Origin: Pirellulales bacterium
Lineage (GTDB): Bacteria; Planctomycetota; Planctomycetia; Pirellulales; Thermoguttaceae
DNA: 64,000 nucleotides
NCBI GenBank assembly: GCA_013360685.1
Contig: JABWBD010000004.1
Span: forward strand, 1 to 64,000
Reading direction: 5' to 3'
Both the position numbers and the translations under genes were made by a program. The notes below the pieces were generated by a model. It ran no database searches, was not told where the DNA came from, and saw only the letters and a program-made list of their open reading frames with translations. This document shows positions 6,498-27,086 of the stretch, in pieces (the stretch's first letter is position 1; each line of letters starts with the position of its first letter).

Positions 6498-7076
6498 ATG
6501 GCTGAAACCAATACCTCTACTGCTCCCGCATCACCGACCGCCGCGACGACACCACCGGCGACCGGTTCGTCGCTGATCGGAAAGCTCATGATCGTCCTGT
6601 TCCTGACGGCGGTCATCCTGGCCGAGTGCGTGGTTGCCTACCTTTACCTGCCGAGTGTCGAGCAGACTGCCGCCTTAGCGGGTACCGCAGCCGCGGCTGA
6701 ACCCAAGAAAGAAGCCGCCTCCCACGAAACCGAAGAGTCGGAAGGCGAGCCCACGGAACAACTCGAAGTCGATCTTGAGGAGTTCACGGTTACCGCATTC
6801 CAGCCGGCATCCAACACCACTTTGCGGATAGACTTCCACCTCTACGGGACGGTGGCGACCAAAGACCAGGCCGAATTCCAGCATGAAATGGAGAAAAACG
6901 TCCATCGGTTCCGCGAGCAAGTGATCGTGATCGTGCGGAGCGCTGAGCTGACCGACCTGACGGACGCAGGGTTGGGCTTGATTAAAAGGAAGATTTTGGA
7001 GAAAACTAACCGCATTCTCGGCAAGCCTCTCCTCAAGTCCGTGATTGTCAGTGATTTTTCTTTCATCGAACAGTAG
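6498..7076 (+). CDS. fliL: FliL, basal-body-associated stator regulator
   Basis: FliL surrounds the stator and supports torque. The 192-residue product has a low-complexity Thr/Ala/Pro N-terminus, one transmembrane helix (about 30-50), an acidic linker and the periplasmic FliL domain ('LRIDFHLYGTVA', 'VHRFREQVIVIVRSAELTDL', ending 'VIVSDFSFIEQ'). The 158 bases between motB and this gene contain a short CGTCGT/ACGACG hairpin but no promoter I would defend. The ribosome-binding site is weak. Confidence 0.92.
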   Translation: MAETNTSTAPASPTAATTPPATGSSLIGKLMIVLFLTAVILAECVVAYLYLPSVEQTAALAGTAAAAEPKKEAASHETEESEGEPTEQLEVDLEEFTVTAFQPASNTTLRIDFHLYGTVATKDQAEFQHEMEKNVHRFREQVIVIVRSAELTDLTDAGLGLIKRKILEKTNRILGKPLLKSVIVSDFSFIEQ

Positions 7077-25261: not shown

Positions 25262-26674
25262 TCATACGTCTTTTCCCTTCGCCGCTTTGTGTGCGGCCAG
25301 GGCACGCTGGGTATTCAGAATCTCCTGCCGCAGGGCCTCCTTGTCGGGCAGGTTGGTGAGGTATTTCGACGCGAACACCTGGGCGCGGATGTCGCCGAGG
25401 GCGTATTCCACCACGGCGTCGTCCTTCTCCGAGCAGAGAATGATGCCCACCGGATCGGCCTCGTCCGGCAGCATGAGGTGCCGCTTGGCATAGTTCAGAT
25501 ACAGGTTTATTTGCCCAGCATCGGCGTGCGTGAACTCCCCGGTCTTGAGGTCGATGACAACCAGGCACCGCAAGGCGCGATGGTACAACAACAAGTCGAT
25601 CCGATACCAAACGCCGCCGATGCGAATGCGTTTCTGCCGCGCGACGAACGTGAACCCCGCCCCCATTTCCAGCAGGAACCATTCGAGATGCCGGATGAGT
25701 GCCTCTTCAAGCTCGCTCTCGCTGTACTCGTCCTTGAGGTTAAGGAACTCCAGCAGGTATGGGTCGCGCAGCTCGTCTTCGGCCGTGATCGCGTCCTCGG
25801 GTTTCGCAATCTGCCCCCTGGCCAGCATGGCGGCCTGGCGCTTCGAGTGCGATGACCGCTCGTAGAATTGTGTGCCAATCTGCCGGTTGAGTTGCCGGAT
25901 CGACCAACCGCCACGGATGGATTCCGCTTCGTAGAACGCCCTCGCATAGGGATTGGCGACCGCCATCAGCCGGACGTATTGGGACCAAGAGAGGGGAAAT
26001 GCGTCAGTCAGCGCGAAAGCCGACCGGTTCGCGTCTTGGCGGATAGCGGGAATTAGGGCCGATTCTGCAGACGCTGTCTGCGATTTCTCGGCTTCAGAAA
26101 TTGCCGCCGGTGTCGGCAAGATTCTCTCCGCGAAAAAGTCTGCTAATTGCGCCTGCGAAAAACCGCCACCGCCCCCCCTGTGGGGAGATTTGCCCGACGG
26201 TGTCGGGCAAATTGGCGACGCGGCATCTTCCGGCAGCGGCGATAAACGCACTTGTGCCTCGAATTTGCCCGATGGTGTCGGGCAAATCTCCCAGTTAAGG
26301 TAGAACGCCCGCATTTTCTGAAGTCCTTGACGCGAGAGCCCGCGGCCATGCTGTGCCGTCAAGTCGTTGCCTAGACGTTTGAGCAACGCCTCTCCGTACT
26401 CCGCCCTCGCCTTCCCACCCTGCTCGTACTCGACGATCCTCCGGCCGATCTCCCAGTAGGTCGCCGTCAGGATGCTGTTGACCGCGCGGGCCGACCTGCG
26501 CCGAGCCTGATCCAGCAACGCGGAAATGCCGGTCAGCAGCGTGCCGTACTCGGGCTCCGGCGCAACCGATGACGCGGAGAAGCGGGGACGCGGAGACACG
26601 GGGACATGAGGGTTCTCTCCGTCTTCGCGTCGTTCCTTTTCCGTATCCTCGCGTTTCCTGCTATGCTTCGCCAT
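25262..26674 (-). CDS. DUF1016 (YhcG-type) PDDEXK nuclease with in-frame palindromic insertions
   Basis: The N-terminal DUF1016 part ('LTATYWEIGRRIVEYEQGGK', 'GRGLSRQGLQKMRAFYLNWE') and the C-terminal nuclease part are clear. The latter has 'VWYRIDLLLYH', 'LVVIDLKTGEF' and 'AGQINLYLNYAKR', matching a PDDEXK core with Asp, Asp-Leu-Lys and Gln. Between them (about residues 130-210) lies a variable insert of repeated peptides: 'ICPTPSGKF', 'ICPTPSGKSP', 'ILPTPAAIS' and 'SQTASAES'. Each is encoded by a DNA palindrome. A second low-complexity stretch ('NPHVPVSPRPRFSAS') sits near the N-terminus. I chose ATG 26674, seven bases after AGGAGG, over the track's 26713. It overlaps the four-helix-bundle gene by 14 bases. 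Family role is unknown; links to mobile or defence loci are reported. Confidence 0.85.
   Translation of the reverse strand: MAKHSRKREDTEKERREDGENPHVPVSPRPRFSASSVAPEPEYGTLLTGISALLDQARRRSARAVNSILTATYWEIGRRIVEYEQGGKARAEYGEALLKRLGNDLTAQHGRGLSRQGLQKMRAFYLNWEICPTPSGKFEAQVRLSPLPEDAASPICPTPSGKSPHRGGGGGFSQAQLADFFAERILPTPAAISEAEKSQTASAESALIPAIRQDANRSAFALTDAFPLSWSQYVRLMAVANPYARAFYEAESIRGGWSIRQLNRQIGTQFYERSSHSKRQAAMLARGQIAKPEDAITAEDELRDPYLLEFLNLKDEYSESELEEALIRHLEWFLLEMGAGFTFVARQKRIRIGGVWYRIDLLLYHRALRCLVVIDLKTGEFTHADAGQINLYLNYAKRHLMLPDEADPVGIILCSEKDDAVVEYALGDIRAQVFASKYLTNLPDKEALRQEILNTQRALAAHKAAKGKDV
26067..26287. repeat. Cluster of four small palindromes inside the DUF1016 reading frame
   Basis: Unit 1 is GCAGAC-gct-GTCTGC at 26067-26081. 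Unit 2 is TTGCCG/CGGCAA at 26101-26119. Unit 3 is the perfect ATTTGCCCGAC-ggt-GTCGGGCAAAT at 26188-26212. Unit 4 is ATTTGCCCGA/TCGGGCAAAT at 26263-26287. Units 3 and 4 are near-identical in sequence. All four keep the host frame open and translate on the minus strand to variants of (C/Q)-(P)-T-(P/A)-S-(G/A)-(K/E). Confidence 0.85.
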
Positions 26675-27086
26675 CGTTTTGCCTCCTACGCGCGGTTGAC
26701 TTCTGCTTGGCAATGGTCCAGTCGGCCGGGCGTTCGATCATCTTGACGAGTTGACCAAGGATTTCCTCACATCGCGCGTCAAGATTGTCCGCGTCTGCCG
26801 GCGCAAGGTAACCGCAGCGGCGTGAGACTTCGACCCACGTTTGCGTCTCCGCCGCTTCACCCTCCGCATCGCTGAGCTTGGAAACGAACGCCGCCGGGTA
26901 TCGTCGTTTGCGCCAGGCCTCCGCAGTATTTCCGGCCACGGAGCGCGACGCGCGCCGGAATTGGTCTGTCAACGAGTATCGTTCCTCCGGTGGAAACCTC
27001 TTGGTCAACTCGAAGACTCGCATCGCCAGGTCCATCGCGTTCTGCCACACCCGCAGCTCCTTGAACGACCGTATATTCGCCATCAT
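26661..27086 (-). CDS. Four-helix-bundle protein (S23/IVP type)
   Basis: The product of about 141 residues has the pattern of the 23S-rRNA intervening-sequence-type four-helix-bundle family: 'FKELRVWQNAMDLAMRVFEL', 'YSLTDQFRRASRSVAGNTAE' and 'GEAAETQTWVEVSRRCGY'. Start ATG 27086 (or the adjacent ATG 27083) has GGGAG upstream, itself part of a tandem repeat; the track's longer frame runs through that repeat. The family forms small helical oligomers. A relative (Avd) assists diversity-generating retroelements, but no reverse transcriptase is present here. It overlaps the DUF1016 start by 14 bases, so the two are translationally coupled. Confidence 0.85.
   Translation of the reverse strand: MMANIRSFKELRVWQNAMDLAMRVFELTKRFPPEERYSLTDQFRRASRSVAGNTAEAWRKRRYPAAFVSKLSDAEGEAAETQTWVEVSRRCGYLAPADADNLDARCEEILGQLVKMIERPADWTIAKQKSTARRRQNDGEA

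Follow-up and report, generated by a model that had tools for sequence, protein, structure and literature searches.

A 27-bp palindrome of fixed position and free sequence in the coding region of DUF1016/YhcG nuclease genes

Introduction

Rickettsia palindromic elements are about 100-150 nt long and are found in intergenic regions, functional RNAs and coding sequences (PMC4316617), while the REPs, which are associated with RAYT transposases, are palindromes tagged with GTAG/CGTC (PMC3733652). Coding palindromes of up to 284 bp are described for the mitochondrial genes of four nematomorph species (PMC6649704). DUF1016/YhcG is a widespread, poorly understood bacterial nuclease family, and its literature (PF17761, PF06250) deals only with fold, distribution and genome content; Kosinski et al. 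placed the YhcG nuclease domain nearer to the YraN-like Holliday-junction resolvases than to the RecB-like nucleases (PMC1189080). No description of a palindrome in DUF1016/YhcG genes was found in the open-access literature searched.

The window analysed here, a stretch of 64,000 nt from a Pirellulales bacterium, contains a DUF1016 gene with palindromic units that an earlier note had compared with the Rickettsia elements. The two are alike in that palindromic DNA was inserted in frame in coding sequence and is translated. The DUF1016 unit differs in being 27 bp long, in belonging to one gene family and one ancestral site, and in having no conserved sequence: pairing falls to chance beyond offset 13, no common sequence of about 100-150 nt was found, and dispersal in many unrelated genes or spacers was observed neither in its own genome nor in 49 genomes of many phyla, where 38 of 41 sites were in DUF1016 genes. 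With the REPs the unit shares a short hairpin, a conserved foot (AATT in place of GTAG/CGTC), a variable but compensating stem and a tie to one enzyme family. However, REPs are high-copy and mostly extragenic and contain frequent GT pairs, whereas the unit is intragenic and shows no GT preference, and the patterns used located it at 0 to 5 sites per genome, for the most part inside DUF1016 genes; the REP enzyme is a tyrosine transposase, whereas DUF1016 is of the PD-(D/E)XK type. The nematomorph palindromes are also inverted repeats inside protein-coding genes, but the DUF1016 unit is a fixed 27 bp in one nuclease family. A DNA structure conserved across phyla in the coding sequence of one enzyme family, with its sequence left free, matches no palindrome family that we found.

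Results and discussion

The DUF1016 gene of the window

The gene lies on the minus strand (25265..26713) and encodes 483 aa from a TTG start, with an alternative ATG 13 codons inside. Matches to DUF1016_N (E-value 5.9e-36, 124 bits against a Pfam cut-off of 32.8) and YhcG_C (6.4e-57, 192 bits against 32.5) identify the protein as a clear member of the DUF1016/YhcG family. Conserved residues of the nuclease domain were aligned, and DNA cleavage is a putative activity. The DUF1016_N match consists of two parts on the minus strand, profile positions 2-89 at 26270..26527 and 91-137 at 25856..26020, separated by an expanded linker of 83 aa (26021..26269, minus; domain match and AlphaFold2), and the Pfam match to the YhcG_C PD-(D/E)XK nuclease domain is at 25325..25774 (minus). 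The array thus does not separate the N-terminal domain from the nuclease domain, as had been supposed; it interrupts DUF1016_N, falling between positions 89 and 91 of the profile, and YhcG_C starts later. In the AlphaFold2 model of the window protein the array was mostly below pLDDT 50, and in that of an unexpanded protein (pLDDT 78) the codons of the unit covered helix 133-140 of a helical bundle.

Four in-frame palindromes had been claimed for this linker. The units are real and all copies keep the reading frame, but only two are near-perfect in the 27-bp frame: unit 1 (26262..26288, minus, ICPTPSGKF) with 10/11 pairs and unit 2 (26187..26213, minus, ICPTPSGKS) with 11/11. Unit 3 (26097..26123, minus, ILPTPAAIS) and unit 4 (26061..26087, minus, KSQTASAES) are degenerate, with 8/11 and 7/11 pairs. 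Two phase-0 centres with at least 10/11 pairs had a probability of P=0.00075 when the gene was recoded synonymously with its own codons, so the two good palindromes are not due to codon choice. Unit 1 aligned with the single unit of unexpanded DUF1016 genes. In the same genome, two further DUF1016 genes matched the whole DUF1016_N without an insert and a third had a shorter insert. The window palindrome, searched with up to three mismatches, had no other occurrence in the 8.0-Mb, 77%-complete assembly. From register and peptide, on which the assumed origin of the copies rests, we infer that in the window gene an intrinsic unit was multiplied in frame to give an expanded allele, two of whose copies have since been decaying.

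A gene for a 23S rRNA-intervening-sequence-protein/four-helix-bundle protein (PF05635; 26697-27086, minus) abuts the 5' end of the DUF1016 frame, and repeats like GGGGACGCGGAGACACGGGGA surround it and also occur in the N-terminal codons of the DUF1016 gene.

The palindrome across DUF1016 genes

Genome, viral and phylum searches gave 198 distinct DUF1016 genes from many bacterial phyla, some archaea and viruses (archaeal contigs were among the loci gathered), a set biased towards conserved genes by the homologue and pattern searches. Counting palindromes whose arms were 9 or longer with one mismatch at most, the linkers of these genes contained 226 against 11.5 expected from synonymous shuffles, which are not a phylogenetic control, and 165 of the 198 genes had at least one. 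The excess was found both in expanded linkers (167 against 8.7) and in unexpanded ones (59 against 2.8); outside the linker, 127 were observed against 84 expected over 217 kb. All but four of the 226 were in a single register, centred on codon position 1, in which second codon positions pair with third ones, an arrangement that would cost the protein least. Among about 70 genes of the same phylum, the unexpanded ones also had one palindrome at the same site. A palindrome at a fixed coding site is thus a feature of almost all DUF1016/YhcG genes, its symmetry kept while its letters vary, and the expanded linkers, that of the window gene included, are arrays of this intrinsic unit.

Units were present in Actinomycetota, Cyanobacteriota, Alpha- and Gammaproteobacteria, for example in Rhodococcus, Curtobacterium, Acaryochloris, Vibrio, Aeromonas, Pseudomonas, a Rickettsiales plasmid and E. 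coli, whereas in Arthrobacter and Thiospirochaeta no palindrome was found at the linker site at the threshold used. The earlier note had asked whether peptide-coding palindromes occur in DUF1016 genes of other phyla and whether copy number varies between colinear flanking domains; the searches and the alignment of homologues showed both, with palindromes in many phyla. Its proposal of a spreading element of the Rickettsia type, for which DUF1016 would be a preferred host, was not supported: a single copy occupies one fixed homologous site even in unexpanded genes, symmetry but not sequence is conserved between genes, and the unit is almost confined to DUF1016, with few dispersed copies. Because of this fixed ancestral site, the symmetry without conserved sequence and the near-confinement, it is more apt to call DUF1016 the home of the unit than the preferred victim of an invader.

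Seven genes had a further palindromic site within the gene, some 25 codons ahead of the linker in a motif like YGExIVxTLSxQL. In plasmids of Acaryochloris and Aeromonas (loci L311 and L315), the DUF1016 gene is flanked by the modification gene and the specificity gene in a type I restriction-modification operon.

Anatomy of the unit

The unit is an inverted repeat of 27 bp, roughly AATTnnnnnnnCA-N-TGnnnnnnnAATT, with AATT-like feet, a CA-N-TG centre and a variable core, and it overlies codons for a short helix that immediately precedes a conserved Trp. When the centre was set by protein position alone, 6 codons before this Trp, 58 of 67 unexpanded genes had at least 8/11 pairs; the other nine, judged by eye where a palindrome was seen, comprised five with a shifted palindrome and four without one near the site. 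In these 67 genes pairing reached 67-91% at offsets 2-13, against 27-66% expected, and was at chance at offset 14, and the units of expanded genes had the same sharp boundary at ±13 bp.

The core varies and still pairs. There were 112 distinct left cores among 299 units, and all four pair types were seen at several core offsets. The arms of a unit paired with each other at 80% of positions, against 45% for arms dealt among genes (maximum 51% in 2000 shuffles), and in the 7-bp core at 84% against 32%. Within one array own-arm pairing was 0.885, compared with 0.66 for an arm taken from another unit of the same gene. Shared ancestry alone is unlikely to account for the palindromes, given the diversity of core pairs at offsets 3-7. 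The highest count per linker was observed in a Verrucomicrobiota gene (L138), where each of the nine units in the array forms a palindrome around a core of its own.

The partly conserved peptide motif would fit an ordinary conserved peptide whose palindrome is a by-product of codon choice. This explanation, to which we leave practically no probability, is refuted by the 20-fold excess over synonymous shuffles and by anomalous codon usage: in GC-rich genes ATT served as the outer Ile codon 16 times out of 17, compared with 62 of 340 (18%) gene-wide.

Maintenance at the DNA level

An 11-13 bp hairpin is possible on the sense strand, as read directly from the sequence, and might control translation or RNA decay as an mRNA structure. 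Such a hairpin should tolerate G.U pairs. The raw mismatch count (49 G.T and 100 A.C) is confounded by coding, and the conditional test at synonymous positions was used instead: at synonymously free third positions, G.U-type mismatches made up 3.8% and A.C-type 4.8% (p=0.36), and in unexpanded genes only, 8.0% and 6.7% (p=0.71). Since G.U mismatches are no commoner than A.C ones, and since the AATT feet persist in GC-rich genes, the symmetry is maintained at the DNA level and not as an mRNA hairpin, which we regard as highly improbable. Rfam contained no family matching the unit.

Copies outside DUF1016 genes

The counts of dispersed copies rest on exact patterns, with which many units are missed. 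The pattern for the class of unit gave 23 sites in 17 of 294 genomes of the phylum, 15 in DUF1016 genes, 2 in decayed ones and 6 elsewhere, and the reversed pattern gave none in the same genomes. In 40 DUF1016-positive genomes, a sequence-light pattern matched about 16 sites whose core was palindromic as judged by eye, several of them in frameshifted DUF1016 relics; 40 DUF1016-negative genomes had one such site, again by eye. The unit can therefore exist outside DUF1016 genes, as in loci L243 and L267 and in a cluster in L283, which counts against reading it as a built-in site. The dispersed copies, also present in L256, the restriction of such copies in the phylum sample to DUF1016-positive genomes and the up to 9 units per linker would suit a selfish mobile palindrome that inserts in frame, with DUF1016 as its favourite or its mobiliser in a REP/RAYT-like pairing with a PD-(D/E)XK enzyme. 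We consider this rather unlikely in view of the 38 of 41 sites inside DUF1016 genes, the frameshifted relics among the apparent outsiders, the single fixed ancestral site and the lack of a conserved sequence and of a high-copy family.

Several of these loci deserve description. In the genome of the closest DUF1016 relative in the collection scan, two adjacent units lie in the spacer between HlyD-like and ABC transporter genes (L256:1501-1561). Homologous non-coding DNA follows a DUF1016 gene and its remnant in a single genome (L286:1597 and L336:291), and the palindromes there differ but are fully compensated; two non-coding copies at related loci of one genome, with surroundings 86% identical, differ by two adjacent compensated pairs. 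Among several palindromes with AATT feet on an Elusimicrobia contig (L143) that has two DUF1016 genes, two immediately precede the start of the second gene.

Possible recognition by the DUF1016 protein

Site, register, length, symmetry, compensation, maintenance at the DNA level and breadth of the unit are secure, and conserved symmetry with changing letters suggests that the shape of the DNA itself has a job, perhaps as a site recognised by the nuclease. On the evidence of sequence, we tentatively favour, with somewhat less than even confidence, a built-in DNA hairpin or cruciform site in DUF1016 genes that is probably recognised by DUF1016 itself. DUF1016/YhcG genes would hold a cis element that preserves its symmetry as compensating changes alter its 7-bp core. 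Because the core varies yet must pair, the feature recognised would be a structure rather than a fixed sequence, probably an extruded hairpin or cruciform with an AATT foot, and a reader of structure best explains why any pairing core suffices. The likeliest reader may be the DUF1016 protein, in which an all-helical N-domain is joined to a PD-(D/E)XK domain; by binding or nicking its own gene it could bring about autoregulation or self-limitation. Autoregulation alone does not explain the fixed intragenic location, as an operator could sit elsewhere. Foldseek found PD-(D/E)XK folds, including the resolvase 2eo0, but these were weak full-model matches of low TM-score that did not place the N-domain, and a sequence search for a solved relative gave none that was convincing.

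More doubtful is a version of this proposal in which each DUF1016 gene carries, within its coding sequence, the hairpin that its own nuclease recognises, with a private, drifting core over codons for the N-domain helix; site and protein would then change jointly, and arrays like that of the window gene would diversify the protein.

A double-stranded site read for transcriptional control by DUF1016 dimers or another regulator would agree with the defined length, the AATT feet and the additional palindromes towards the 5' end of some DUF1016 genes, where 8 lie within the 200 bp before the open frame, a density of 2.08 per 10 kb compared with 0.27 for the following 400 bp. Yet a density of 0.94 per 10 kb far upstream makes this 5' enrichment a weak one, and a fixed code leaves the free palindromic core unexplained unless each protein has its private specificity; we hold such an operator to be decidedly unlikely. 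A twin of the unit within a few kb, as the operator, was rejected as a candidate: 14 of 166 units had a match of at least 19/27 elsewhere in the locus, several of these being further in-gene copies, and reversed-unit controls gave no match of at least 19/27.

The units of E. coli yhcG

The uncharacterised yhcG gene of E. coli K-12 contains three units, and a further palindrome, a perfect one, lies some 15 nt past the stop codon; both the role of the site and the target of the nuclease are directly testable there. The alleles of ES7 and F11 have identical first 240 nt, are 32-35% different over the linker and the preceding 60 nt and 3-7% different thereafter, with other palindromes in ES7 in place of those of F11. 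The O157-like and O111 alleles have lost 79-80 bp, units 2 and 3 included, those of E. coli B and O104 are truncated where unit 3 ends, and in F5656C1 an IS1 end is joined inside unit 3. Domain shuffling at the palindrome, which truncated matches had suggested, was rejected as an explanation, the alleles being products of IS1, of IS629/group II intron, of replacement and of deletion; they suggest only hot-spot behaviour of the units.

Deletion and IS joining at units, a centre base that flips from G to C between E. coli lineages, and an adjacent two-pair compensated change in G071 that resembles one copying event could all come from template switching during replication, which would copy arm onto arm and keep up the symmetry without any function. 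We think this improbable, since it predicts neither the boundary at exactly 13 bp, the AATT feet and the one register nor the one location across phyla.

A segment with a small frame annotated as a transposase takes the place of the 3' part of yhcG in E. coli B and O104:H4, starting where unit 3 ends (L297:4001-4877, L291). Most E. coli alleles read have G at the centre of the palindrome behind the stop codon (L077, about 6970-6996; L295), whereas strain NZRM4169 has C, the change that an inversion of the palindrome would give.
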